A stretch of DNA of 64,000 bases. Source: Bolinopsis microptera. Its lineage: Eukaryota > Ctenophora > Tentaculata > Lobata > Bolinopsidae. The position numbers were made by a program, and so were the translations under genes. The stretch lies in NCBI RefSeq assembly GCF_026151205.1, contig NC_087072.1, forward strand, positions 22,647,603-22,711,602. Direction: 5' to 3'. Below are positions 3,628 to 44,133 of this stretch, in pieces. The notes under the pieces are model-generated. The model was given only the letters and a program-made list of their open reading frames with translations, was not told the origin of the DNA and searched no databases. The stretch's first letter is position 1. Every line of letters begins with the position of its first letter.

Positions 3628-12389
<8,762 letters not shown>

Positions 12390-16605: not shown

Positions 16606-19398
16606 TTGAAATTAGGACCATGGAATAGTTGGGAAGTTCTGACAAAATGTGAGGAAATATATGGTGTTACAGTTAAATGGAGAAGAAACATATTTTTGCT
16701 TCCCTCAGGGGCGGCAGGAAAAGCATTCATCGAAGAAATGACTAAAGTGGCCAACAATTTCACATCAGGCAGTGCTATGGAATCAGTGACCATCACCCTT
16801 TTGATGATAATGCCATCACTGCTGTTACAGAAACCCTCAAAGAGGTCCAAAGCAAAGGAACACACTGAAGTGCTGAAGAGAAGACTTGTTTTGTGGCAGG
16901 CAGGTAAGCTAGAAGAGCTGCTGCGAGAAGGACAGGAGATTCAGAGGAGATTGGGAAAGGGGAAGCATAAACATGGCCATGTTGAGAGAGTCTTCACTCG
17001 ACTTATGATGAAAGGAAAAGTCAGTGCAGCAATGCGGTGGATTGGTGAAAATGCCACCGGAATTCTTGAACCTACTCCAGATGTGATTAAAGTGCTGAAA
17101 GAGAAGCATCCCAAGGCATCACCTGCATCAAAGGGAAGCTGTCTGAGTGGACCAGTGAGGAGGGTAGAGCCGGTAATATGTGACAGTATTGACGGGGAAT
17201 CGATAAGACAAGCAGCAAAGAGAGTACAGGGTGCTGCAGGGCCTTCAGGGATGGATTCGGATGCATGGAAGAGACTACTGTGTTCTAAACAGTTTGGTAA
17301 GAAGTGTGAGGATCTATGTAATGCCATAGCAGGGATAGCAAAGAAACTATGTGTCCGGAATTTGGATCCAACGCTGTTGACCTCATTGACAGCATGTCGA
17401 CTTGTCCCCCTGGATAAAAAGCCTGGAGTCAGGCCAGTAGGCATAGGTGAAGTCTTAAGAAGGATAATAGGGAAAACAGTAATGACCCTCCTACAGAAAG
17501 ATCTGGTTGGAGCCACTGCTCCTATTCAAGTTTGTGCTGGTCTTCAGGGAGGAGTGGAAGCAGCAGTCCATGCTGCAAGGGACTGCTTTGAAGACCCTGA
17601 AACTGAAGCTATCATCTTAGTGGATGCAGAGAATGCATTCAACTTGCTGAACCGAGAGGCCGCTCTCAACAACATGAACATCGTTTGTCCAGAAGTTGCT
17701 ACTTACATTATGAACACCTACAGAATGCCTGCTAGACTGTTCATTGCAGGAGGAGATGAGCATCTTTTTAGTGAAGAAGGGACCACACAAGGTGATCCAC
17801 CTGCCATGGGATTTTATGCCTGTGGTACAATACCATTGATTGATGCAGGAAACATTGAGAGAAAGGTGACTCAGATCTGGTATGCTGATGACTCTGCTGC
17901 TGTATGGGGGAAAACTGGAGGAAATAAGGAAGTGGTGGGATAACCTCTGTATTAAAGGACCACTCTTTGGATACAACCCTAAATCTTCTAAAACATGGGT
18001 GATAGTCAAGCCTGAGCACGAAGAGAAGGCAAGAACCCTATTCCCAGATGTCAATGTGACAAGCATTGGTCGACGATATCTGGGCAGCTTCATCGGAACA
18101 GACCAAGGAAAAGAGGCTTTCATTGAGGAAAAAGTTCATGAATGGTGTCGTGATCTTAAACAGTTAAGTGATATAGCATCAAGAGAACCTCAAATAGCAT
18201 ACAGTGCATACATTAGTAAAAGATGGAACTATGTGTGCAGAGCTACCCCAGGAGTTGCAGATAGGCTCACTCCTCTAGAACAAGTAACACGTGATGAGTT
18301 TATCCCAGCTATCATTAACAGGCTGTTTAGCTGCACTGATGAACTAAGGAACATAATGGCTCTACCACCAAGATATGGAGGATTGGGTATACCAGTTATG
18401 ATGGAAATGGCAGACCGAGAGTACAATTTCTCATGTAGAGCCACAAAACCCCTTAAAGAAGCTATTCTCAAGCAGATAGAGAACTACACAGAGGACTGGA
18501 GACACAGTAAAGGAGTGAAAACTGAGATAACGACTGAACGAAATCTCTTTTATCGACAAAAACAAGCAGAAATACGCCAGGAGCTCGAATCAACACCACT
18601 GGCAAATTTGATGTTCCAACTAGCAGCTGAGAAAGGGCAAGTGCTTGGTTAACAGCGCTACCTTTAAAAGAGTATGGATATCTGATGAATAAACAACAGT
18701 TCTCAGATGCAATAGCTCTCAGATACAACCTGAACTTAAAGGACTGCCCTAAAACATGTACATGTGGCCAGAAATACTCAGCAAACCATGCGCTCATCTG
18801 CAAACTTGGTGGATATGTGTCACTGCGGCACAACTCGCTGAGAGACACCTTTGCAGAACTAATGAGAACTGTGAAATGCAAGGATGTGCAGACTGAGCCA
18901 GTTCTTCTTCCAGTTGATGGTCTAGAGTTACCAAAGGGAACAGTCCTAGGAGACCAAGCCAGGCTGGACATTTCTGCAAGATCGATTTGGAATGCTTCAG
19001 AGAGGGCATTTTTTGATGTAAGGGTATTTCATGCCCCAGCCCCCTCCAATGCAAGCAAACCGATACCGGCAATGTACCTGTCCCATGAAAATGAGAAAAA
19101 GCGATGTTACAATGCAAGGGTTCTTGAAGTGGAGAAAGGAAGCTTCACACCTTTAGTGTTCTCGACTTCTGGTGGAATGGGTGGTGAAGCTGAGAGACTG
19201 GTCAAGAAGCTGGCCAGTAAGATGGAGTACCACACTGGTCAGAGGTACTCAGACGCTGTAGGATACATAAGAATGCGCCTTCGCTTTGAAATCCTTAGAA
19301 CAACAGTGATTTCTCTCCGTGGAGACAGAGGTGCGAGAAAAAACATTGTTGATATAAACAGTCTAGATCTTAACTTGGAGCCACAAGGCCAAGGGTAA
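16606..19398 (+). pseudogene. Reverse transcriptase / restriction-like endonuclease ORF of the LINE, frame-disrupted
   Basis: Three overlapping frames (to 17943, 17882-18652, to 19398) together cover one polyprotein. The first has an N-terminal LPSGAAGKAFI block, then AAGPSGMDSDAWKRLL, RLVPLDKKPGVRPVG, ILVDAENAFN, EGTTQGDPPAMGFYA (RT motif B) and YADDSAAVWG (catalytic motif). A frameshift near 17915-17925 moves it to the second frame (PRYGGLGIPV), and another near 18640 to the third. The third has WLTALPLKEYGY, CTCGQKYSANHALICK (a CCHC-like knuckle) and ARLDISARSIW followed by FFDVRVF, fitting the PD-(D/E)xK core of a restriction-like endonuclease. The long readable frames suggest a fairly young insertion. 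Confidence 0.85.
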
Positions 19399-21031: not shown

Positions 21032-21574
21032 ATGGATGATGTAGAAGCCCCCGTTCAGGATGATGACCTTACTTTGCCTAGATCAGCAGTTAATAAAATG
21101 GTAAAAGAGCTTCTTCCTCATCTTCGTGTGGCAAACAACTCAAGAGAACTTATACTTAATTGTTGTACTGAGTTCATACTTTTATTATCATCACAATCTA
21201 ATGAAATTTGTGAGAAGCGCCAAAAGAAAACTATTTTGCCAGAGCATGTTATTGAAGCTCTACAGGAACTTGGTTTTAGTACTTATGTACCTGAAGTAAA
21301 GGATGTCTTGTCAAACTTTAAAACCCAACTCTCTCACCGTAACAAAGGGAGTAAAAAACTAGATAAAATGGGGCTCTCTGAGGAGGAACTGATTCGGCAA
21401 CAACAAGCTTTATTTGCTGAGGCTAGACAGCAACATTATGAATATGAACTTGCTCAACACAATGCTGCTATGGAAGCAGCTGCAGCCACTGCTGCTGGGA
21501 CTCTTGCTTTGCAAACTCAGACTTCAGTGACACCAAGTAATAACAGTGCTGACGATGATGACGATTATGATTAA
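21032..21574 (+). CDS. DR1: DR1 / NC2-beta, TBP-associated transcription repressor
   Basis: NC2-beta pairs with DRAP1 (NC2-alpha) through histone folds, binds TBP on promoter DNA and blocks TFIIA/TFIIB entry. The 180-residue protein is close to the 176 residues of human DR1 and colinear with it. The histone fold spans residues 10-95: DDDLTLPRSAVNKMVKELLP, RVANNSRELILNCCTEFI, NEICEKRQKKTILPEHVIEA and LGFSTYVPEVKDVL. It is followed by the conserved EEELIRQQQALFAEARQQ segment, a Q/A-rich region and an acidic tail (DDDDDYD). The CDS is one exon. A splice acceptor about 15 bp upstream suggests a spliced 5' UTR, arguing against a processed retrocopy. A polyadenylation signal AATAAA lies at 21882. 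LAMTOR3 follows 535 bp downstream on the same strand. Confidence 0.96.
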   Translation: MDDVEAPVQDDDLTLPRSAVNKMVKELLPHLRVANNSRELILNCCTEFILLLSSQSNEICEKRQKKTILPEHVIEALQELGFSTYVPEVKDVLSNFKTQLSHRNKGSKKLDKMGLSEEELIRQQQALFAEARQQHYEYELAQHNAAMEAAAATAAGTLALQTQTSVTPSNNSADDDDDYD

Positions 21575-25323: not shown

Positions 25324-25405
<82 letters not shown>

Positions 25406-25429: not shown

Positions 25430-28400
25430 ATGTCTCAGCTTCCTACCTCCGCACACCAGCTCTTCACTAACCTAACACCCATCACTATAGACGGACAAAC
25501 AGTCTACATTGCACAAGTCAGATCGGACAGTAACTATGCTCTGGCTAGTGTGGGTAACCTTGGCAACATTCCTGGCATCTCGCCTGTCACGTGTCCAGTC
25601 AGTTTCGGGACCCAAGCTCAGGCAAGTCCTATGAACATCCAGACTAACATGAACAATGTGATGACGATAACCAACACAGGAGTTTCCTCCCCGGGTGGCA
25701 TATTGACGATGAGTCTCCCAAGTGGGAATGGTATGAGCTCCAGCCCTCACAAACAGGAACCCTTGTCTTCTCCTTCACCCTCCGGCTATATGAGGAGTGT
25801 AAATCTACAGGGTCATAAGGTAAAGATATGTGAATACTTATCTAGTTACCAGTCATGAATTCAGGATTTATCTTTTATAGTTGGTCCCTGAGAGCACTGA
25901 AAATATTACAATTTCCCCAATCCTCATTTTTATTTGCATTTTTAATACATCGGCCTACCTCTCTATCCTCACCCTAGGGACTTAGAATTAAAACACTATA
26001 ATGTATAATGTATATTGTATAATCTATTTGTACATTTTTTCATCGTCGCTTGATTCGAAACTAGGATAATCAGATAAAAATACTCCCTCCCACAAGAAAA
26101 AACAGATACAACAAGAATTGCGCCGGTTAGCGGACGCTAGATTTCCATCGACCGTACTCGTAGGCATTGCCTTTTAAAATTTAAAATTACAATTTACAAA
26201 AGCCATGTGAAGGAATGGTTGAAATCCGTATTAGGTAATCATAATGTAACTCATAATAATATTTACGGTCCATTTCGTATAACAAATTAATCGCTCGACA
26301 ATAATGTTCAACATGATATCAGCATCATAATTTGTTCAACAAAGGATGATCATAATAATTAATTACTCTGCACTCGACTGTCACGTAACTTCTTCAACTC
26401 GTTCTCTAGCTGGCACTGAACGACTATTCGAAACCCTAACCTATTATTTGATATATTAATTCCAATTTTAGAACAATCTCGAAGATCGACTGTAAAGTGA
26501 TTAAGCACGCTCGTTCAACAATATAATTATAACGGATTATTAATAATCTTCATTTAACTGATTGGGATCTGAGTTCTGACACATGTAATTTTGCAATGAT
26601 CTTTCTAATTTCTAATTTCTAATTTCTAATAGCATTATCGGGAGCCAAGTCGGTTGTTGCACCAATAACTCACAACAAAACGTGAAATTAGTATGTTATA
26701 CTTGTAGTTGTACTTGTAGCGCATCAATATTCAATGATCAACATTATTTATATTAAAATCCATTTAAAATAACAGAATAAATTATTGTAATTACATACGT
26801 ACGCTGACCCATGACCGTAACTGTTATGAAAACTTCAGTCAGCTTGGCGCCGCGCATTTGAAAGTGTAGTACAATCGTCGAATCGTGCAAACGTGTGCGG
26901 AGGGTAACCGTGGAGATGACACCATTACTGCTCCGCGCGCAGAGAAGATGCATTTAAATGGTTATGCGGAGGGTAATGCATGTTTTCCTTTGTGACACAA
27001 TTCATGACTCACGTGACACGAAAAACATACCTACCTACTATACCCGTCCTCAATTCCTACCACTTCTAACCATCTATTGCCTTTTTAAGGCGATGGAAAA
27101 AATTGTAAAACAAAACGTTCGCTACAATACCGAAAGCGAACGGTCTTGAGGTAATCGAGACAGAAACCGAAAGTCAGTGTGATTACCAGCGCAGCCGTTG
27201 ATAAACCTTAGTGAAAACCAAAAGTGACTGGAAGACTAATTGTGCTCACTACATGAACTTACGGCACTTTTATACAGCCAGATGTGTTATATGTGCTCAA
27301 CGGTAGAAATAATGTTCGAAAGTTTGGTAAAATTCGTGAAAATTGAATCGGTTTTAAATCTTCATAAATCATGCAGTTTGTTAGGAATTGCTTGCTTGTG
27401 GAATGTGGAGACAAGTCATACCAGTTTATGTTATTTCAACTAATCGTTCGACCGATAAGCACATATTTGGGTCTGTTAATCAATTATTAAGGATCGTTGC
27501 CGAGCTTCTAACACAAGATGTTATTTTTATTTACACGCTATTACAACACGGCGATAACATTGGTAGAATTAGACCTAATCGATAAAAATAACTCATCACA
27601 GAACATACTATGGTAAATACAAAACGGATACAGTCTGATTAAACTTAATCAATAATTATGTTCCACATAATCATACTACATTATAAATTTTCCCAAAAAA
27701 GTGGTAGGGCCATTCAATAAAACAACATAAGTAATTTATTATTAAATATACAGATTACAGATTTAAATTTAAGGATTGACCTCTCATGTGTGACATGTTG
27801 TAAAAGGACCAGTGTGGGACACCACGCACAGTCCAGTGCAAAACATAATATATTCAGTACCACGTGAACCAGTTTTGGGGGTTAGCTTGAGGTTTGATGA
27901 GGCCACTATGATAAACAACTTCAGTTTATTGTCCACACCTTTGTAGCCCTGTTATATTAATATTATTCTTAATGTTATACACACTGCAGTCGCCTCACTG
28001 TACATTTTCTCTCGTTAATTTAGCAAAGAGTCTAGTGTGTCTGAACACCTTTTCTTCATCAGTTTAATATAATTAACATTAGTTTAATGGTTAACATTAT
28101 TTACCTGAGATAGGTACATAAATTGATGTCATATTTTGCTGCTCTAATATATTCGACAGCAGTCTAACATAGTTAACATTCAGATTTCGAACGGAGAGGG
28201 GACGAGGAAATTGCTGTTGCCCTGGTTAGTGGAACATCTTGACAAGAACTCGTTCCGGGGTGTACAATGGCAGAACAGGGAGCATGGTCTGTTCTTGTTG
28301 CCATGGAAACACGGTAAAAACAAAGGATTTGATGAGGAGACGGACGGGGAAATATTCAAAGAATGGGCTGTAAACACTGGTTAGTTTCCATGGTAACAAC

Positions 28401-31400
28401 GTGGTTTCCATGGTAACAATGTGGTTTCCTTGGTAACAATGTGGTTTCCTTTGTAACCTGGGCTGTCTCTTTGCGCGGCATCAGTCGGTGACGTGATGTT
28501 TTAGTTGTCTCTGGAATGCAAAACTTGTGACTTTCGTATGCATATAATGAATTCCTGATATCACACCAATTTGAAGCCATATTTCATAAAATTATTGTCA
28601 ATTCAATTTCAGGAAGATATAGAACAAACGAGCAGCCCCAATACAAAGTATGGAAAGCCACGCTAAGAAATGCGTTACATAAACACCCCCACATTCAGGA
28701 GGTCAAGGAATATGGGAAATCGGGTCTTTTTAGGGTGTACCAAATTACCAGTAAGTTATATTATAATAACATAAACTCGTAAGTTATATATTATATACTG
28801 GTAAGCTATATTATGTCTATCTAGCAATATCAGTTAACACCTCAGGCCATAATATCAGGAACGTTATAAATACGAAAGAGTTTTGACGGTTTTATCAGAT
28901 CTACATTCGACAATCGACAATATTCTAGTGCTATTTAAAAAGCGCTAGCTTCAAGGTCTCTGAAACATACGTCAATGAAAACTCAACGTAATGCATATTA
29001 TCTAACCTTCGACGTAGAATATATCTATATTTAGATGTATGAGGTTCACATTGTGTTGTGTAGCACGGCATAAAATGGTATACATTTTTGCACATTTTTG
29101 ACAAATTTTTGCATTTTTAGGCGGGAGTTTCTGAGGGGCCGGCGCGGCGATGGGTTATAATTGTTTCCAGGAGTAGTTCTTGACCAAAAAATAAAGTTGG
29201 GTTAAAGAATTCGTAATTTCAAAAATTTTCTTTTTAAGCACATTTGTCAGAAAACGGCAGATTTATGCCATGGATTTTGGTTATCGAATTACATATGTGA
29301 CACCTAAATTAGACATCCTAAGCCTAAGGCTAAGATGTTTAATATTTATTTACGCATACCAGGTTACCCAAAGCACATACCAGGCTACTATAAGCATGAT
29401 CCAGTAAACTTAGGCATTAAGTAGTGGATGAAGTAGGGCTAAAGTAGTGGATGACCTTGCTGTACGGCAAGTTAAACAAGGATCTGAAACTACTAGGTTC
29501 CGTACAGACTCAACTCTGCACCCGTGTCAATATGTTCATTATATGCAAGCCTCTTGATTTATTATGCTAAATTAAAGTGAAATTGTTAGTATCTAGTCTA
29601 GAATAAATACTTGCCCTAAAATGCTCACTTTCTGAGTTATTGGCAAATACGATAAAAAGGAAAAAAATTGATGTTCAAAATGATAATATATTATATAGAT
29701 TCTAGATGTTTGGATTTAATTTACATCGTCCTTTAATGCCGAAACTTTATTAAAGATCGATTTTTGAAAAAAAAAACCCTTTGAGCAGATCAACATTTAT
29801 ACCATTTGGGGCTAGCTATAAATAGGAACAACCAAACAAAGACCATATCTCACCACACGATCACTTCAGCGCCAGTTAATGGTATAATGGACCCGTCTGT
29901 GTCGCTGTCCAAACCTAATCCTGCTAGAAAAACAGAGAACATGAACAGCGGTTTAAGTGCTGCCTCCACTTTCTTTTCTGGAGGTGTGTTCAGCAACGCT
30001 CCCTCGCCTGAATTCGATACAAATGTAATGGTAAGTTAAAGGAACCTGAATGACGAGATTCATGGATCACACATGATCTTGATCGATACCAAAAACTGTT
30101 TTGACCCTATTCATCAATCATCATCCCATACTATATTTTTATAATTATGAAATTCTAGGTTTACCGTTAATCTCAACCCCAGGGCCCGCCAATGTCCCAA
30201 GTAAACGGACCCAACACTCCCACCAACATGTCCTCCTTCTCCTCCCAATACAGCTCTCTCATGTCTCCTCCCACCATGGTCAATACCCCCACTATGATGA
30301 CGACCCCATCTATTCAGATGTCAGCTCCTAACACACCACTAGGTGGGCCTCGTACTCCCCTCACTCCTACTGCTACAGATAGTGTCAGTCAGAAGAACCC
30401 CAGTCCACAGGATTATAGGTCTACTGATGCCGTCCGTGAGTATACCAATAATGATTAATAACTCATTGCTAACTTACTTCATTCTCTTATTGCAGTAAAC
30501 TTACCTGTTGGTATGTTAATTGCTTTTGAGTTGAGTAATAACTATTTCTAACTTGTAGATTTCATTGCTAGATGAAACGACGATTATTCAGATTAGCTGG
30601 TATTTGTAATCACAACAATGAAAACAATACATCTGACTTTTGCTTTTGCCTTTCAGTCGATATTCTCACCACTATCCAACGTCAGCTCCGTCCAATCGAA
30701 TGAATCAGGTTTATTAATCACTTTTCTAGTGTGAATGTTTTGAAGCTGTCGACAGCGTACTATAGTATATGTTACAAAGATAGAAGCAGTAGAAAGTAGC
30801 TGTAACATCTACGGAGTTAACAATATTGTTATCAGATAACAGTATTGTTAACTCCGCGCTTATTTGTTCGATCACCATGCCAAAAGAAATAAGTAACATT
30901 CAGCACTGTCTTGAAAACGAATGGGAGAAAGTTTTGGCCATATAAGGATCTTTCCATCGTATCAACTTATCACAAGACCAACATATTTGATAAAATACAC
31001 TATATCACTGCTCACTTGTAGCAGAATGACATTCTTATTAACTCCTTTGTCAGAGTACCCCAGCGAACTAGAGATGAGTCCAGGGTCCAGTGTTGTTACA
31101 ACAGTTGACGTGGTCAACAATTTCAACTCCTCAAAACAACACATAAGAAGCGCTAGTGGCACCGTCCTCACCGATCACATTGAAGAGATCCTTAAACAGG
31201 CAAATATTTTGAGTTTTGTTAAATTTGGCCGGTGCATCGTCCAAGTTTGGCACCTGATGGCAGTAGTGTACAGGTTACATTATATACAATATTATGTACT
31301 TTCCCAGGATCCTTCCTATTGACTGTGCACTTGCACTATTGGCTAACATTGGTTAAACCGGTTATTATACGCACAGCAAATTAATGACTAGCTGATTTAA

Positions 31401-32916
31401 AGAACGTACTTTACATTCCAAGAATACATACTCTGCAAATATTTTAATGTGCTGCGTATCAGCCGACACACAATAATAGCATTCGTTCTATGTGTATCAA
31501 ATGCAATTGTGTATGATTATATCCATAATAATAACATATTTCCCACTGATTTCGTAGAATCATATGTTAAAAGTCACAGTTCTATTTATAGAAATTTAGC
31601 ATGTAATGGATGTTATTCAACAGGTTTCGTTGCCACAAATGGAAACAGACAAAGGTCAGAACAACAACGATTACGGTATGAACATGGATCTCGAGGATAT
31701 GCTCATAACTGGGGTAATTATCTACTTATTTGTTTAATAAGAGTTTTTCTCACTTTTCTGAGCACCACAAGATTACTATAAACCGGTTTCTTCCCTCTCA
31801 GACACCGCGCCTTTGAGTCACATGATTTAAGGGTCCAAGTACAAGATCGTATGCCTGACCCCTATCCTATCATCAACCAAGATACCAAAAATAATTGTAC
31901 CCTTTTCTCAATCCTAGCTCCACTCTTGACTCAGTGTTGGATTAAGAAGGTCAAATCATATAAGCACAAGAAAATATTGCTTACTGATGCGGCAAGTAAA
32001 GGTGGTTGACATGATTTTAAGTGCATTGTTGTATATTATTTATATGGTCTAACTTGTTAACCCAATACAAAGTCGCACATCTTGCTAACTATCAAATGGA
32101 ATGAACTGAAATAATCGTTGCCTATTTTGAAACACAGGGAAATATTACTACCCGAAGAGTAGGTTAATTTTACTTGCATACTTCCTCACATTGGTTTTTA
32201 TACTTAAACAATCTTTCTGGGGCTTTACAACGCTGAGATTTTATTATCTTGGTTAAGCTCTTAAGGAAACTATATAATATCATCACACTGGACACGTGAC
32301 ATCAGACTACCTTCAAATGGACAATGAATCTAGTTACAGCAGTGTCACTGACGTTGACCATACTCAAACTTATCGTAGAGTCAATATACGATATATTTGT
32401 GCTTGTCTGCCTCGCGTTTGATGGCCATTAGATATGAAGGAGTACGGGGTATTGTCCAGATTCTATGGATTGCTAATTAAAAATGTGTCCTTAAAAGGTG
32501 GCTCAAAGCTTGATTTTATAATGACATAATACTAAGGAAAGACTCTTGTAGCCAAACTCTTTTTGACAGTATCAAATTCTAGGACCAAACATTTCTAAAG
32601 AATTTGTGATCCCCATTCTGTGAAACGCAAGTCTGTGATAAACCCACAAGTATGATAAAATCACACAGCCCTCCTAATAGCTTGACACAGTTATATTATG
32701 AGGTGTTGACAGTTGGCATTGTTTTAACATTGTTAAACACCCAGTGCTCATTACAAGCGAGTCTATCATGAAATACCATTACCATCCTTATTTAACATCG
32801 TGCCAACTTTCAGGACTCATTTCTAGCAAATCCAAATAGTGGAGCGGAAAAACAGGAGGAACAACAACAACAAAGAATGGCAGGGCAACAGCAACAGCAA
32901 CAAAGAATGGGAGGGC

Positions 32917-32950
<34 letters not shown>

Positions 32951-33027
32951 GCGGCAACAACAACAACAAGGACAACAGCAGCAACAACAGCAACAACAGC
33001 AACAACAACAACAACAAGGACAACAGC

Positions 33028-33061
<34 letters not shown>

Positions 33062-35554
33062 CATGTCTCAACAAAATACCATGTCTGACTCGCGGCTTAC
33101 CCTTCAACAACAGTTCCTCATGCACGAGAGAATGAAGCAGCAACAGGATCAGTTACAAAAGCAGCGTGAGAATAGAGGAAAACAGCTGCAAGATAACAGA
33201 AACAGAAAAGAGTCCGCTTCTAAACAAATGTCAGGGAAGAAGCATGACATGTTCCCTTCCTCCCCTAACCTTAACCTTAACCACGAACAGGAAATGAAGC
33301 TTGTTGAGTTGAAGAAGCAGCGGGAGTCATTGAAAAAACCACAGAATAATGGAAGTAAGATAATGCATAATGAGCCGTCTGCGATTGATGAGATGCCAAT
33401 GGAGGAATTATTGGGTACCGTTCCTGAACCTAGGAGACTTGGCAAGCGGCCACGATTGGATTGTAACACCGACATTTCTACCGAGGTAAGACAACAGCAA
33501 AAGCTTTTTTAATGTTCACAACATTTATTGTGACAATTTCAGAGGCTGTTCCGGGTTCCCGACACTCTTGATATTCATTCAATCAATGTTGTGTTTGTTG
33601 GGAAAACGGTACCCCAAAATAACGTCATGTCTTGGAGGGCGCGAAGACAATTATGTGTACAATTTCTTATTCCGAGCAATCTAGAGTTACGCGCGAAGCG
33701 GGCCGCGCAATTCTAGCTAAAGAAACACTTCAATCCATGTTGATTTTAGGACAGATGACTTATCGGACTTGACGAATCGAGATCATATTTCGTGTCATAA
33801 GACTATTAAGATGAACCTTCAGGCTCTTACCTTGCTATTGAGAGTATAGAATAACAGAGTAGCTATGATTATCAAAATTTCTATTAAAAGTGGAATGGAT
33901 ATTATGACGCAGTCAAACTTATAATTTATACGCCTCATTTACTGGCCAGTATATTGCGATAAAATCTAAACAAGTATCAAGTTGTCGGTCAAACCGCATG
34001 GTACAAAATATCTTGTGAGAAACATGACGTCTTTAATCAGACATGTCTGCTACAGGCTCATGAAAATGTATACACTATACAGTGTAGACTGTGAAATGGT
34101 GCTGACGATATTCCCATTGATACAGACACATTTATTATCTGATTTCACGTGCTTTTATTTTCAGGGTCCAGTCAGTGCGGTGGACTATCTTACCAAACTC
34201 AAACAGATAGGCTTACCAAAGAAACAAAGTGAGAATTATTTTAAAACCTAACGCTTTATATTTATTTCAATGGCCGAGGTTTATCTAATAATCCCAATGG
34301 CCAAGGTTTATCAGAATAATATAGTTATTGAAATGTCTACACTCTATCGAATCCCTGCTCAAGTTTTCAATATAATTGTTTTATAACTACGTCTATCGAC
34401 CAGGTCCCAATAGCATGGCTATAACAATATACTACAAGACAGTGGGAGTGGCTGCGTATGGGATCAGTAATCCTGTTGGGGCTCGTCTTTACTACTGTTC
34501 AAACCAGCGTGTTCAAGTTACAGACGAGAAGACGACTAACGAATTGTACGGCCCACAAGACGCCACTCAGGTTAGAACAGATAGCATTAGTTCAGTCACG
34601 GTCTCCCGATCATTCGGCTGAGTAGACCATTACATAGGGCTACATAGACCAGATAGAATCGTTACTTCTAAGCTGACCCAAGGGCCCCTCCCGAATGATA
34701 GGCATGTGCCTGCTGAATATGTGAACAGCGGTGATAATTATGAAGTACCTTTTCAGATCTGTATGCCATGGTGTCGAGACAACACGCCCACACAAACTTT
34801 ACTCGGAACACTTACACGCGGTGTGATTTTACAAGAGGAAGACGGAGACGTATTCGCTACCCGTCTTTGTCAATGTGCTGTCTTCTTCGGGGACAAGCGT
34901 GGGGTTCTCACCAAGTTAGAACGGTACGAATGAGTGCTTTGTCCTGTTTTAAGATTTTTTAAAAACGATTTTTTAAACCCATAACCATCTATTTTCTCAG
35001 TGGACAGAGAGTCAAGATATTCGACTTCAAGACCCGTTTTCTCCCATTATACTTCCAACACCTACAGTCTCAAAACAGTGGGTCTCAGGGTGGGGTTAAA
35101 GTAGTCCTGGACCCTTTTCCTGACCCTGATGTCATGTTAAGTTTCGGTCAGCGGTGGGATGACCGGAGACCAATCGAGAACACCCTTATTTGGGCAAAGG
35201 TAAGTTAATCATACGGCAGATGAATTGTTATCGGTTTTAAAGATACCTACATTTGACATGTTGATCGTCTATAATTATTTCAATTCATGCACTCCATTCA
35301 ATCCATTCATTATAAATACTGACACTGTGTAGCTTCAAAAAATATACCTTATTAAGTCACACCAATAACGTAAAGTAGTAAGGTTAATCAAAATCATGTC
35401 TTGACAGGTTATACACATGAAATCCCGACAGTTGACTTTGGACTTCACTCAGCTCTTCCCGCCTCCTCCTCCTATCGTTAATGAAGACTGTATTCAGTTT
35501 TCTGAGTCCGACCCTTACGATAGACTGGCTGATGCCTTTAGCCTCGCTTTATAG
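25430..35554 (+). CDS. Interferon regulatory factor with long Q-rich linker (DBD + IAD)
   Basis: Transcription factor of the IRF family. Exons: 25430-25819, 28184-28379, 28613-28750, 29789-30030, 30183-30435 (or 30431), optional 30659-30710, 31054-31199, 31624-31713, 32814-33485, 34165-34228, 34404-34570, 34673-34923, 35001-35199, 35408-35554; about 984 residues without the optional exon. The winged-helix DNA-binding domain spans exons 2-3: LLLPWLVEHL, GVQWQNREHGLFLLPWKH, IFKEWAVNTGRYR, YKVWKATLRNAL and RVYQIT. Five family tryptophans are visible, and the GW position after PWKH is GF. The middle is Pro/Ser/Thr/Met-rich then polyglutamine (about 32868-33060). The C-terminus is an IRF-association domain: ITIYYKTVGVAAYGISNPVG, RLYYC, LGTLTRGVILQEEDGDVFA, RLCQCAVFFGDK, KLERGQRVKIFDFKTRFL, DVMLSFGQRWDD and ENTLIWAKVI. 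It is about twice the usual IRF length. Exon 1 belongs by phase only. One junction seems to use a GC donor. Confidence 0.92.
26460..26515 (+). repeat. Unoccupied copy of the RLE LINE target sequence
   Basis: TTTTAGAACAATCTCGAAGAT followed by CGACTGTAAAGTGATTAAGCACG combines the left flank of the 15.6-kb element (TTTTA plus the duplicated 16-mer) with its right flank (CGACTGAAGAGTGATTTAGCACG). It is therefore the pre-insertion form of the same dispersed sequence, here inside IRF intron 1. I do not recognise the host repeat or RNA it comes from. Confidence 0.75.
28384..28457 (+). repeat. 20-bp repeat of X-box-like palindromes just inside an IRF intron
   Basis: Units starting at 28384, 28404, 28424 and 28444 read GTTTCCATGGTAACAAYGTG, with decay in the last two. 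Each has the GTTNCC-ATGG-NAAC form similar to RFX X-boxes. The array starts about 5 nt after the exon 2 donor. It is also nearly the reverse complement of 28294-28313 in exon 2 (codons for LLPWKH), so a strong RNA hairpin is possible. Confidence 0.85.
29050..29480 (-). mobile_element. Relic of MITE family A in an IRF intron
   Basis: Diverged relative, in reverse orientation, of the interior of the 5652-6270 element. Shared blocks include ATTTTGG then TCATCGAATTACGTATGTGGCAC (here TTATCGAATTACATATGTGACAC), ATTTACGCATACCAGG and CATACCAGGCTACT. An ATGGCATAAA-like end (CGGCATAAAATGG) is near 29068. No clear target duplication remains, so it is older than the two bounded copies. Confidence 0.6.
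32868..33060 (+). repeat. Polyglutamine-coding CAA/CAG tract in the IRF gene
   Basis: Mostly CAA with interspersed CAG codons encode runs of up to about fifteen glutamines, broken by RMAG, RMGG, R and G. The mixed codons and interruptions imply a long-lived coding tract rather than a pure microsatellite. The poly-Cys and poly-Leu frames on the other strand are shadows. Confidence 0.92.
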
Positions 35555-36789
35555 TTGTCTTAAAGAAATTAGAAAACTCAGATTAATTGTTCAGAAGATC
35601 AAAATGTCAATTGTGTTATGATAGTTCAAGACTCGATACCCCAGAAACTGGTTGCATAAACGTTTGATCAGGAAGTCTTGAACCAGTGCTGTACTGAGTG
35701 CTGACCAGCCGCCCTGATAGGGGTTGTGGAAACAACTGAAACTATCAACATGAACGCTATCCCAGATTTCACAGAAAAATGTTTTTGACTTTTTGAACCA
35801 CCATGATCGTTTCAGTTTGATCTGAAATATTATATTGTAAATAATGTAAAGTAATGAATAATTTGATATTTTAATACATAGTATTGAAATTTCAAAAAAC
35901 TTATATTATTTGGTCTTAATTATAGATTAGCGAATTGACTTTTCTTACGTATTTGAGTAGCAATGGTTTCGTATTTTTGATGAATGAAAATAATTATAAT
36001 TACGCAATTGCAATTTATACGGTCAGATATAATATTGAGAAGTTGAGAATCAATCTTACACTTGGATGTGTGATTGGACAGTTTTGTTACGTATTTGGGT
36101 ATAACTACGTTTCATAAGAAGAATTACACCTATGAAACATCAAAAGGCTGGTATAGATTACTCTGATTGGATTTTTCAAAATAATTTATTAGACTTCAGA
36201 GTATGCAAGTTTTTTGTTTTTAATCCTTATATCGTTTTGATTGATAAAAAGTCAATGTTTGTTGCTTTAATCTTTGACTTATGTTATAATATACCAATGG
36301 AATATGATTTATTTCATTCTTTACAGTATCAAATATGTATATTTGTAGTTCTATTTTATTCTGTTATAATCCAATTACCAATACAATCAATCGACAAAGT
36401 TTTCATTTTCTCTTAATAATGAAAATGATTTTAAAACTTATTTGACTCATGAAACCACAATTTTAAACAAACTCTATTATTCAGCAAACGATTGTTATGA
36501 ACATCTCTGGAACATTGTTTAATCGCAAATAAAATAAATAAAAAGCATCAAAATAAGAGTGCTGCAAGAGGTTTATAGCAAATCAGCTAAATTAATAATA
36601 TTTTGCATTTATATGTTCCATAATCATCATCATGATAATGGAATCCCATAATAGACTAGAAATTTAATTCTGTAAAATTTCACTTCCTTATTAATGTTCT
36701 TTGATTTATGTTACCGGCAGACTATACTACTGAATATTTTAGCGAAATCATAGCAAAAACATGCATTATTATTAACATAAGAAAACAGT
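35555..36789. other. Convergent intergenic region between IRF and GPCR
   Basis: Very AT-rich DNA between two genes that face each other. It should hold both 3' UTRs. AATAAA-type runs occur around 36520-36540 for the plus strand. The open frames at 35935-36117 and 36132-36416 are AT-rich, rich in I, F and Y, and match nothing I know. Confidence 0.4.
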
Positions 36790-38507
36790 TCACACGATAG
36801 AATTAGATAGTCTCTGGAATTGTTTATTGTCTCCATCTTCAGAACTCAGGCACGGACAGATCAGCCACCTCTTGATCTGTTCCCTGACGCTCTGTGTAGT
36901 GAGAAGATAAGCGATGGGAGAGAGGGATACAGATAAGATGAGGATGGTCCACATGAAATCGACCATGAGCACCACCTCCCCCGGCTGGCACCCGTAGAAC
37001 AGGTTCGGGTAGAGAGACTGTGGGATCCAGGGTAGGGTGGAGAACAGGTTTAGGATTGTTATCACTACTATCGACCAGGGGATCGTCGACCGTTCCTTCT
37101 CTGTTCGCTCTTTGTCAGATGTAGGTGTGCTGTCCGACTCCGAATTGCTGAGCAGATTTTCTGAAACTCCAGAAGAGTTGAATCTGGTTGAGTTGGTTTT
37201 GTTTGCGGAAGCGGTCCTACTCCTGCTGTGAGACGTGGTCCTGGCTGCTACATATGCCTTGTGTTTAGATATGATCCTGTAGATGAGACAGTAGAGAACC
37301 AGCACTGCCAGAGGAGGAACCACGAACCCGAAGAGGATGTAGAGGACGTAGAAGGTGGTACAGAGTGTTCCTGTGTCACTGTACCTGCACTGTGTGAACT
37401 CTCCTTTCTCGTATAGTGTGTAGCTGCATAGCCCAAAGTTCGGCAGATTCGCCAGAATTATCGCAAAAACTACCAGTAAGAGGAAACCTGAAATATAGGT
37501 CTTGTTAAAAGCAGTGATTTTTATCGAGTTGATTCAAGACTCAAGAAAGCTTAACTTGAAGTTGAACGTGTAAATATGATTCAACGAAAAAGATGTAATA
37601 TAACACAACTAAATTTCTTATTCGTTTGAGTATTCGGTGAAATTGATTTGTGAAAAAGTTACACGAAGTAATCACCTGTTAGCTGATAGGGCATTCTGAG
37701 GATATTCCTCCAATTCATCGGGTACTTTAGGAAGAGGTATCTGATGAGAGTGATAGAGAGTACAGCGTATCCTGGTAGTATCATCCCCACGCTGTGTAGA
37801 GGCTCTGTGATGGAACAAGAGGTGGGAGTATCATTATATAGGTTAGATGAGAGGAGGGAGAGGATCATACATATCACCAGGAACAGCTGACAGCCAGCGT
37901 AGAACAGGACTGATAGGTAGATCTTCAGGAGGGGTTTTAGAAGGGTGAGGATGGCGTAGACCAGGAAGATGCTCGAGAAGAGGAGGATTGCGAAGCCGGG
38001 GATGTAGACGATTCTAACCATGACTCCGTTATCGTAGGTTATAATGCTGGCGACATTGCAGGTTCTATTACCCGTCATGTTCTCACGGTCCTCGTATGGG
38101 TCCAGGATGAGACCGATGTCAAAGTCTGGACTGCTGTAACCATCGGCTCCATCTCGGACACTGAGAACTGGTTGCAATGCATCGGCGGCTTCTTCGTCAG
38201 TTACACCCGGCTTTAGAGTTACCAGTTTGTTGAAGTCAAGATCGTTTATTTGACAAAAGCTGAAAAGTTTTTGTCAATTTAGTCCATTATATCTGGTTGA
38301 ATTTTCTTATTAAAACGGTACTTCATGTTTCATATTTTTAGGCTATTTCAACAAAATATGGAATTCCCTTGCCGATCAAATAATACTCAACGATGGAAAT
38401 TGCGAATCATAAATTCTTTATCACCTCTTTAACGCTGGATTTACTCACCTAATATTCAGTAGAAGATAAACTATAGATAAAAAGTTAATCGTTCTCCACT
38501 TGTACAT
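36790..38507 (-). CDS. Seven-transmembrane receptor, divergent rhodopsin-like GPCR
   Basis: Plasma-membrane receptor; ligand unknown. Exons 38507-38449, 38259-37676 and 37487-36790 join in phase (2, 1) to give 446 residues. Exon 1 encodes a signal peptide (MYKWRTINFLSIVYLLLNIS, then FCQ). A roughly 80-residue N-terminus has N-glycosylation motifs (ENMTGNRTC). TM1 includes VYIPGFAILLFSSIFLVYAI; TM2 YLSVLFYAGCQLFLVICMIL; TM3 VGMILPGYAVLSITLIRY, where IRY replaces DRY; TM4 FLLLVVFAIILANLPNFG; TM5 FYVLYILFGFVVPPLAVLVL; TM6 IPWSIVVITILNLFSTLPWI; TM7 has SPIAY in place of NPxxY. TM3 and extracellular-loop-2 cysteines (TSCSI, TQCRY) could form the usual disulfide. Loop 3 is long, Ser/Thr/Arg-rich. 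The tail has a CPC motif (LICPCL), a possible palmitoylation site. Confidence 0.88.
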
Positions 38508-40828: not shown

Positions 40829-42925
40829 GAGGTTTACAAGGTTTACAAGGTTTACAAGGTTTACAAGGTTAACAAGGTTTACAAAAAATAGATCTATATT
40901 ACAGTGAGATAATGTCAGATCAGCATAGCTAAAGGTCAAAGTCCGAAATCCAAATAGAAAATCCGTTACCATTAAGATGTTTGATGAGTGTAAAGAAAAA
41001 GTGAAAATGAAGGGGCTGTGGAGGAAATGTGATGTCCCGTACTGAGACACTAATGTTCGTGTTTCTTCTTTATAGGGAATCGTGTTCTGCATAGCTGAGC
41101 GACGAACTTGGTGAATTCCACTATGTGCTCCGGTAGAAAGAGGCTCTTCATGTCATGAAATAGTAATGACTTTGTGGGCTCCTTCATGTTAGTCCTACTG
41201 GAATGGTACCTGGGACATGTTCTAAGGAAGTGTTCTTCATCTTCTATTATCGGATCAACACAAGGAAGATTAACAAAGAGCTCCATCATTGACTTTTCGC
41301 TGCAGAATTCACAAATTCTGTGATGTTGACTTCCAGTTCTGCTCCCATATCTTCCAGTTTCTATGTTCTACGTTTAGCTTATGTCCGCTCATTCGGATCC
41401 TAGCCACTAAGTTGCTTCCAGTTCTCGACGGTAGCGTGAGGTACGGCTCCTGCTCGAAAGCACCTTTAACTTTATTATAGAACGTAAGCTTCTTATTGCT
41501 TTGTCTTTCTGTTTCCCATAGATTGATAAATCGGTTATGTGCCCTTTCCTGACATAACAATGGGTTGTATAGTTGATGTTCAAGTTTGTTCTCGTCGAGT
41601 ATCGTTAGCATTGATTCCAGTGCTCTGAACCAACCTAAATCAAGTTTCTTCTGCTCAGCAAAAGCGTGCCTGGCTAGGGCTGGTGAGTCTTCTAGTTCAA
41701 GTCTTGCAAGGCGATTATGGAAATCGGTGACTTGTTTAAGTTTAACATATCGAACTACAATAGGGGTTCTTCCGCAGTCTCCCCAAACAGCTGCGTTAGA
41801 TGTCGATTTGCCAACTCCAAGGGTCCATTTAAGGATGGCGAGGTGCATTCTTTCGAATGGGTCAGCTGCAATGCCTGCCAGTGGGGATTGCTTCGTATTG
41901 TCAGTTGTGCTGACAAAAGCCTTAATTCCTGAGCTACTGCTGATCCAGACTTCCACTCCGTACGATACAACTGGCAGTATGAGGGAGTCGAGCAGTTTAA
42001 GAACTGCGACCTTGGATATATTGTTAAGGTCGACTTCACTTTTCAGTCCAAAGTATGCCCGGAGAGCTTTTTGTCGCAGAAGGTTTAGTGCTGTCTTAAA
42101 GCTGCCCGACAGTGAGAAGGTGATCCCTAAATAGCAATATGTTTTTGCTGATGGGATTGTTGCTCCCATGTACTGAAAACCGTAACTCTCTTTGAGTTGC
42201 CTTCCACTTTTATTAAAAATCATGATGGCGGTTTTCTTGGTGTTCACCGTGAGCCCCCATTCTCTGCAGAATGACTCAAGTTCAGAGATCATGACCTGAA
42301 GACTTTCTTTCGAAAGTGCGAGGAGGACAAGATCATCTGCCCACAAGAGGTGGGTCAGAATAGTTTCATTCAGCAATGGACTTGAGATGTCTTGAACACT
42401 GTTCAGTCGTTCCGAAAGTTCGTGGATGTAAGTTTTGAATAGTTCGGGGCTCATTGGGTGGCCCTGCTCCGTACCTGCAAGAATATCAAATGAGTCTGAT
42501 ATTTTAGCGATCAGCTTGATCTTAGCTTTGGAATTCTTGTACATATGTTCTAGACATTTTAGGAATTTTCCATCTATACCAAGGGTTGAGAGCTTGTACA
42601 GAAGAGCTTCACGACTGATGGAGTCGAAAGCTTTGCGAAAATCCACGAAACAAGAATAGAGTCTTTGTCCTTTGTTATTCACGTATTTGTCTACACAAGT
42701 GGAAAGGGTGAACAGATGATCCACAGTTCTAGCATTCTTACAGAAGCCAAGCTGGTTTACTGTGTCCGGGCAATGTTCCTTCCTGAATTTTAGCAAACGG
42801 TCCAATAGGATTGTCGCGAAAAGTTTACCAAGGTTGCTCCCGATCGCAATGGCTCTGTAGTTATCGGGGTCGTAGATACATCCTTTCTTGTGGAGTGGGC
42901 TCACAATCGTAGTGTTCAAATAATG
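40829..42925 (-). mobile_element. 5'-truncated L2/CR1-like LINE with short tandem-repeat tail
   Basis: On the minus strand, a 536-residue RT frame (42919-41309) is followed by its C-terminus in another frame (41289-41050), then a 160-bp 3' UTR ending in about five TTGTAAACC-type units (40829-40885). Short tandem repeats at the 3' end are typical of the CR1/L2 superfamily, as are the RT motifs. The copy starts within the RT N-terminal region, so the endonuclease is missing. No target duplication was found. Confidence 0.85.
41050..42919 (-). pseudogene. LINE reverse transcriptase fragment
   Basis: RT motifs in order: IVSPLHKKGCIYDPDNYRAI, VNQLGFCKNARTVDHLFTL, SCFVDFRKAFDSISREALL (catalytic Asp), AGTEQGHPMSPELFKTYI, HLLWADDLVLLALS (catalytic ADD) and GLTVNTKKTAIMIF. 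The C-terminal part has a zinc-knuckle-like tail, HFLRTCPRYHSSR, in another frame after one frameshift near 41290-41310. The missing 5' part and the frameshift make it non-functional. The N-terminal Met is arbitrary. Confidence 0.88.
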
Positions 42926-44133
42926 TAATCTCCCAAATAATGTAAAACAGATTGCCCTACCTTACTCAAAGTCTCAAAAATGGCCGCAGTGAGTTTTAGA
43001 TACCCTACCGATTAGAACCCCGGGTCTGGTATGCTCAGCAAAATATCGAAACTCTGTTGACCCACCTTTATGTCTCAAATGACGCCTAGGTGTACAACAT
43101 CCAACTTCTCTAAGACAGCCTTAGGTGCAGCCCAACAATCGGAGTTATACATTTGAACACAGACACTACCAGGGCTTCATATGCAACAGTGAACAGGAGT
43201 CGCTTCTGCAGAGGTATCTTGTTAGTCCAGGCTTTTTGATATTTATTGAAAGCAGCATAGCCTAGACTAATCCTATAACGCTGAATGTCTGCTTAATACT
43301 GCAAAGCATGGGCCCAGTGCACAGTGTGAATCACACTGGACGATTGTACCATTACTGGTCCGGTAGTGGTACAATCGTCCAAGACTGACGACGTGACGAT
43401 GTCAAATTTCACATTTTCGTTTGAGGCCAACGCCCACCTACTAATAGTAATAATGTATTATCAAAATATTGCATTCCATTCTCTTCTGGATGATTCAAGT
43501 TCTCATTATTATCAAACATGTCAATCTTACAAATGTCAACAATCCTAAAATAATTTAGAACCGAAACGTGATCCTTTGTAAAATTTTATGTCCCAATAGT
43601 CAAATTGACTTGTACTCAAGTATAAAGTTAAACAATTTACTCCAATAACTACGGTCACTAGCAAGTTCTCTCAAATGGAGAATATCATCATACGACTCCA
43701 GCAAGATCTCAAACAACTAAAACCTTATTACAGAAAGCCTGGAAAACGCAATGTATCTTTATCAATGAAGCACCCTTCTTTGTTTTTAGTTAATTCCTCT
43801 GGGAAGCTCAGTGAACACTGATATGAAGGAAACCGGCCGACCGGCAATATTCTACTCTCTTACAATGACGGAGATCTTATTTACATTGACTTCAGGGGCT
43901 CTAAGTCCTTTTTATTATCCGGTTGTTCTCGTATGTCGTAGCTCTGGCTAGACTGGCCATGTTGATCTAGTATCGGCCAAGGAGCGCTCTCAGCTTCTTG
44001 ACCAGCTCAGTCGGTCAGCATGGCACATGTGCGCGCGATAAAACGTGCGTAAACGCGAAAATCGATTGGCTTCATTACTACGCAATGACATCGCGCGTTC
44101 CAAATAAGCTTAGGAAAACAAACCAAGCCAGTA
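42926..44133. other. Gene-free stretch with one strong hairpin
   Basis: No coding signal. At 43337-43380 there is a near-perfect hairpin, GGACGATTGTACC and GGTACAATCGTCC around ATTACTGGTCCGGTAGT, preceded by a smaller one (CAGTGTGAATCACACTG). Open frames here are short and match nothing recognised. Confidence 0.4.

Follow-up and report, generated by a model that had tools for sequence, protein, structure and literature searches.

A stretch of the Bolinopsis microptera genome, positions 25430–35554 (+) of the window (the 64,000 nucleotides of DNA analysed here), is most likely a single gene of the interferon regulatory factor (IRF) type in this ctenophore. The best account of the locus as a whole, which we hold with considerable confidence, is one ctenophore gene whose product, some 983 residues long, is a transcription factor of the IRF type. 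In the modelled protein, an N-terminal extension precedes the IRF DNA-binding domain (DBD), which is followed by a 518-residue linker, the IRF-association domain (IAD) and a short tail. By these two domains, as read from the translated exons, the gene is an IRF. An earlier note on this DNA had described an oversized IRF with both a DBD and an IAD, and the 983-residue model, in which both domains are matched, supports that description.

DNA-binding and IRF-association domains

Both domains lie on the forward strand where the earlier note had placed them, and both are recognized far beyond chance. Pfam family PF00605 (IRF) matches residues 141–240 with an E-value of 1.3e-25 (90.2 bits, cut-off 27), and PF10401 (IRF-3, the IAD family) matches with 1.2e-27 (97.3 bits, cut-off 27). 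MH2, a related family, scores 18.6 bits on the IAD, under its cut-off of 25. Among PDB sequences, the best match to the DBD is a p65/IRF7/IRF3 fusion (1e-25), with IRF2 next (1.5e-22), followed by IRF1, IRF4 and others including IRF10; DBD identity is 37% to the IRF2 chain and 39% to the IRF1 chain. The IAD is closest to IRF5 (3.9e-15), with IRF4 at 7e-5.

The DBD is divided between two exons. Exon 2 (28184–28379, +, leaving in phase 1) encodes its first two thirds, including the PW, QW, PWKH, GF and EW motifs, and is matched by PF00605 and by PDB sequences of IRF1, IRF2, IRF3, IRF4 and IRF7. Exon 3 (28613–28750, +) encodes the remainder, including the recognition helix KVWKATLRNALHK, and also has Pfam and PDB matches. 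The IAD spans four exons: exon 12 (34404–34570, +), where it starts, with Pfam, PDB and genome profile matches; exon 13 (34757–34923, +), which reads ...TRGVILQ...FATRLCQCAVFF, and exon 14 (35001–35199, +), which reads ...FGQRWDDRRPIENTLIWAK, both with Pfam and PDB matches; and exon 15 (35408–35554, +), matched in the PDB, which encodes the end of the IAD, a short acidic tail and the stop. The C-terminal tail comprises 38 residues from residue 946, 11% of them Ser or Thr; in kinase-activated factors such as IRF3, IRF5 and IRF7 the C-terminus carries a phospho-switch that TBK1/IKK-type kinases release.

Four of the five tryptophans of the IRF tryptophan repeat are kept, and the fourth is a phenylalanine (GF after PWKH). 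The earlier note had drawn attention to this GF in place of GW. The substitution is indeed present, but it deserves less weight than it was given, since IRF3 and IRF7 also lack that tryptophan (the aligned IRF7 segment has Leu there, IRF3 Ala); a repeat with four of five tryptophans therefore does not bar IRF membership. A published IRF signature, W-x-[DNH]-x(5)-[LIVF]-x-[IV]-P-W-x-H..., as it appears in the consulted part of PMC2885996, is strictly missed at one place, with Leu at the [IV] position, and fits once Leu is allowed. Beside a 90-bit profile match, we do not treat a one-residue miss as excluding this sequence from the family. In the IRFs known to us the DBD stands at the N-terminal start. 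In the model of this gene it comes after 140 residues, a count that depends on exon 1 being joined; we regard this as a matter of position, not as a domain criterion for the family.

Judged by sequence comparison, the recognition helix is a more unusual feature than the GF. IRF1 contacts bases through R82, C83, N86 and S87 (PMC7819612, in the part consulted). The helix reads RNALHK in the ctenophore protein and RCAMNS in IRF1 and IRF2, so that the IRF1-contact places hold R, N, H and K, and the base-contact residues differ from those of both vertebrate factors. The same four places hold R, C, N and S in IRF1, IRF2 and the IRF of PDB entry 8hcs, R, S, N and R in IRF3, and R, C, N and K in IRF10. 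The Lys at the S87 place is thus shared with IRF10, whereas none of the five proteins compared has His at the place of N86.

Regulated transcription-factor action is highly probable for a protein with these domains. The DBD would bind GAAA-type half-sites, perhaps with an altered preference, given that IRF1 has other residues at three of its four base-contacting places. Dimer or partner contacts, including self-association, would fall to the IAD, and the Ser/Thr/Pro-rich extension and linker could serve as a surface for activation and phosphorylation. Whether the GAAA code is the ancestral one can be tested directly on the altered recognition helix.

Vertebrate factors of the IRF4/5/8/9 type, which have about 400–500 residues, share the two domains in the same order. 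They differ from the ctenophore protein in its 983 residues, its 518-residue polyglutamine-bearing linker, the 140 residues before its DBD and the short tail that is all that follows its IAD. IRF1 carries another association domain, IAD2, which is unique to its subfamily (PMC7819612, in part), whereas the ctenophore protein has the IAD.

Evidence for a single gene

That the two domains belong to one IRF gene is very probable in our judgement. Splicing of the forward strand yields a 15-exon model that runs from an ATG at 25430 to a stop at 35552–35554 and encodes 983 residues with no internal stops. Both ends agree with those of the earlier note, which had counted 14 exons; the model has 15, one of them a tentative 15-nucleotide microexon. 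Thirteen of the 14 introns are GT-AG and one, after position 31199, is GC-AG; their phases in order are 0,1,1,0,1,1,0,0,0,0,1,0,2,0. Several exon boundaries were picked so as to keep the frame, and the uncertain ones are the GC donor of exon 7, the acceptor of exon 8 and the donor of exon 10. Downstream, the first AATAAA or ATTAAA lies at 36528, almost 1 kb past the stop.

Read back from exon 2 to the closest in-frame stop, the sequence offers no Met, and exons 2 and 3 themselves have none, so a coding exon further upstream is needed, and exon 1 (25430–25819, +) is the candidate. It contributes an ATG and a 130-residue extension rich in Ser, Gly, Thr, Pro and Asn as an open frame that ends at a GT donor in phase 0, and 1.7% of stop-free stretches from introns have a codon score as high.

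Codon usage lends modest support to much of the model. A codon score derived from 1,623 codons in five other reading frames of the window (one stop among them was not counted) was computed for each exon and for a null of 3000 stop-free stretches of up to 25 codons from introns of the locus. Ten of the 15 exons (1, 4, 5, 7, 8, 9 and 12–15) score so high that no more than 4.5% of null stretches equal them, the score of exon 13 having been computed with an earlier start at 34673. The other five (2, 3, 6, 10 and 11) fall below this level. Such a failure means little, because exons 2 and 3 fail although homology makes them certain.

The main rival to a single gene is a pair of genes: a short, IRF1-like, DBD-only IRF whose end comes shortly past exon 3, and another, downstream, for a protein with the IAD. 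Polyadenylation-like hexamers do occur at 29190–29749, in the intron after exon 3, the linker stretches searched hold no Pfam domain over cut-off (one hit, E 0.2), and an IRF1 branch with the DBD alone has been described from both cnidarians and bilaterians (PMC3308963, in the part consulted). Set against this, the intervening exons all lie on one strand with compatible phases, linker exons 5, 7 and 8 have the three top codon scores of the locus, and the one IAD match in the genome follows the one PWxH-bearing DBD on the same strand, at a distance of about 5.7 kb. A split between two genes, which the earlier note had also considered, is thereby made unlikely, and we rate it as very improbable.

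Intron phases carry little weight in either direction. The ctenophore gene has 14 introns, whereas human IRF-4/5/8/9 have seven, with phases 0,1,0,1,1,1,0 (PMC2885996, in part). In phase, though positions were not part of the comparison, its first (phase 0), second (phase 1) and last (phase 0) coding introns are as in human IRF-3/4/5/8/9 in the same source, and the second, in phase 1, interrupts the DBD. According to the consulted part of that paper, IRF-like genes of other deuterostomes have a genome organization almost unlike that of vertebrate IRFs and intron phases almost without similarity among themselves, which is why phase can weigh little here.

Two candidate features were tried and set aside. 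A start of exon 13 at 34673 was replaced by 34757, which removed a 28-residue insert relative to IRF5 and raised the PF10401 score from 91.1 to 97.3 bits. A candidate exon at 30657–30708 has good splice sites, but its phase is wrong and leads to a stop, and it was left out. Tandem repeats also occur near two of the exons. A perfect ACTA microsatellite of 20.5 copies at 25324–25405 (+) ends 24 bases 5' of the start codon, and a 20-bp tandem repeat, GTTTCCATGGTAACAATGTG, at 28384–28457 (+) starts a few bases past the end of exon 2.

A long linker with a polyglutamine tract

The linker between the DBD and the IAD comprises 518 residues (242–759). The earlier note had put it at about 650, a figure reached only if the 130 residues that exon 1 places 5' of the DBD are added; the N-terminal extension itself was absent from its description. 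Its account of the composition, a region rich in Met, Pro, Ser and Thr followed by polyglutamine, is borne out in the spliced model. The full order is a Ser/Thr/Pro/Met-rich region, a short acidic stretch, polyglutamine, and a charged part with the NLS-like motif RRLGKRPR.

Eight exons build the linker, all on the forward strand. Exon 4 (29789–30030) is rich in Ser, Thr and Asn and has a codon score reached by a fraction of 0.045 of the null stretches, and exon 5 (30183–30435) is rich in Thr, Pro, Ser and Met, with TP and SP motifs and a codon score matched by none of 3000 null stretches. Exon 6 (30496–30510) is the tentative 15-nucleotide microexon, phase 1 on both sides, whose basis is splice sites and phase. 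Exon 7 (31054–31199), tentative in its GC-AG donor, again has a codon score matched by none of 3000 null stretches; exon 8 (31624–31713), tentative in its acceptor, carries the acidic stretch MDLEDMLITG and has a null fraction of 0.002. Exon 9 (32814–33485), in phase 0 on both sides, encodes the polyglutamine and then the charged, helical part with the NLS-like motif. Exons 10 (33543–33608; weak donor, tentative) and 11 (34165–34228) have null fractions of 0.25 and 0.12, so that codon usage lends them no support.

The polyglutamine stretch holds 55 Gln in 71 residues, with a longest pure run of 15, encoded by 47 CAA and 8 CAG codons; at the DNA level it is a CAA array of 48.7 copies with 86% matches. 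No Pfam family exceeds its cut-off in exon 1, in residues 241–490 or in the polyglutamine exon, and we take the single hit in the linker stretches, at E 0.2, as chance. Soon after the polyglutamine, AlphaFold run without an alignment on 33087–33485 predicts two helices, one of 40 residues (33102–33221, +; model residues 6–45) and one of 17. Block pLDDT is 96–98 over residues 11–40, with a mean pLDDT of 75 and a pTM of 0.32. The longer helix may form a coiled coil; a single charged helix often gets a high prediction score, so this step goes beyond the prediction itself. Exon 1 folded alone gives a mean pLDDT of 34 and no confident fold, which is consistent with disorder but is not proof of it.

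Because exon 9 is in phase 0 on both sides, in-frame skipping is possible. The gene might then be one IRF whose 672-nucleotide polyglutamine exon, as a simple repeat, seldom or never enters the mature transcript; the usual protein would have about 759 residues, some 294 of them in the linker. Skipping would cause no frame shift, and the CAA array could have arisen as a microsatellite. Yet the frame is open over all 672 nucleotides between canonical splice sites, and the non-repeat 3' part is coding-like (null fraction 0.010) with a confident long helix predicted, so we consider a routinely skipped exon improbable and retain it in the full-length protein.

What the linker would do in that protein is a more tentative matter. 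An activation or condensate role for its Q-rich part, as the earlier note had suggested, is plausible from the composition. Polyglutamine and the nearby 40-residue helix could together drive self-association, a possibility to which we give slightly less than even weight, and we hold the broader hypothesis of a part for the linker in activation or assembly with about the same reserve. Alternatively, the linker could be a passive tether, a disordered region expanded neutrally and without an activation or condensate role. Low-complexity linkers expand easily, and the stretches searched are free of Pfam domains over cut-off; the presence of distinct regions (Ser/Thr/Pro-rich, acidic, polyglutamine, charged helix and basic NLS-like motif) speaks against it, and we find it rather unlikely. 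That IRF3 and IRF7 undergo phase separation is the subject of a review, PMC10210139 (consulted in part). By title, no Q-rich or polyglutamine IRF appeared among the literature matches listed. On the Q-rich helical linker it can be tested whether IRFs acted through higher-order assembly from early on.

The IRF family in the genome and at the base of animals

The gene bears on the form that the IRF family had at the root of the animals. The existence of a ctenophore IRF is not new, since PMC3308963, citing Nehyba 2009, reports, in the part consulted, that IRFs have been found in ctenophores and that the DBD and IAD are both present already in sponges. Functionally, the nearest precedent outside cnidarians and bilaterians in the literature consulted here is an IRF of the sponge Amphimedon queenslandica, which enters nuclei after uptake of native bacteria (PMC13372038, in part). 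The antibody epitope printed in the consulted part of that paper is, by eye, absent from the ctenophore protein. The earlier note had offered the locus as a view of early IRF architecture if its source were non-bilaterian; the source is, but one species cannot tell an ancestral linker from a derived one. The long linker may be derived, as the comparison took in one ctenophore IRF.

Within the genome, a profile search of the contigs finds a single match to the IAD family, in the window gene, and three matches to PF00605 over cut-off: the window gene, C7:10431046 and C5:17866166. Searches with exon 1 and with the IAD region find one copy of each. The C5 peptide, used as a protein query, recovers three divergent IRF-like DBD exons, at C5:17866127–17866360, C5:17873112–17873333 and C7:10431049–10431279, the two on C5 lying 7 kb apart. 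Like the window DBD they keep W27, W39 and W58, and two of the three exceed the Pfam IRF cut-off; two of the three end with a KxNxR motif. Unlike it they lack PWxH, and the C7 exon is 32% identical. No significant IAD match lies beside any of the three. They are possibly a ctenophore side branch of the IRFs.

Rel-homology (PF00554), STING (PF15009) and nuclear-receptor DNA-binding (PF00105) profiles had no genome matches, which are weak negatives, as 14 control genomes also gave none. In those controls innexin and IRF likewise had no match, and both families were nonetheless matched here, innexin 18 times, which indicates that the profile search does detect animal families in this genome. Ctenophores are not known to have the PF00105 family, nor sponges to have innexins. 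Two pairs of innexin matches have identical scores (C1:4254005 and C1:4378223; C7:6754013 and C7:6935049) and are either recent duplicates or unpurged haplotype copies. No relatives of the window gene were found among prokaryote genome contigs and viral contigs.

According to published surveys, canonical TLRs are missing from ctenophores, and MyD88 probably is too. Mnemiopsis is without canonical TLRs, and when the TIR2 proteins of three ctenophore species were examined, not one clustered with TLR-like or MyD88 proteins, though one with a death domain 'might be considered as Myd88-like' (PMC11797021, as consulted in part; its main text is without the word 'IRF'). Ctenophores also apparently lack NF-kappaB (PMC9621439). 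A bolder proposal would leave such an animal with one full-length IRF, its recognition helix shifted and its glutamine-rich, coiled-coil linker associating with itself, as the last factor of this immune type, and would date the DBD–linker–IAD fusion to the last common animal ancestor; we consider it unlikely as a whole.

Other frames share the window with the IRF gene. Directly downstream, on the reverse strand, 36793–38273 holds probable exons of a seven-transmembrane receptor, with PF00001 just under its cut-off in 36793–37533 (28.1 bits) and no match to it in 37662–38273. Upstream, tyrosine-kinase exons at 8073–10526 (+), with a weak focal-adhesion-targeting match below cut-off (PF03623, 0.0028), are probably a focal adhesion kinase gene. 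A single-exon frame of 180 residues at 21032–21574 (+) has a histone fold (PF00808, 4e-16) and an Ala-rich tail, and presumably resembles DR1/NC2-beta. Two frames are reverse-transcriptase-like: one at 16606–19398 (+), recognized by eye, with 16606–17940 free of Pfam matches, and one at 41309–42961 (−), matched by RVT_1 with 8.3e-30.
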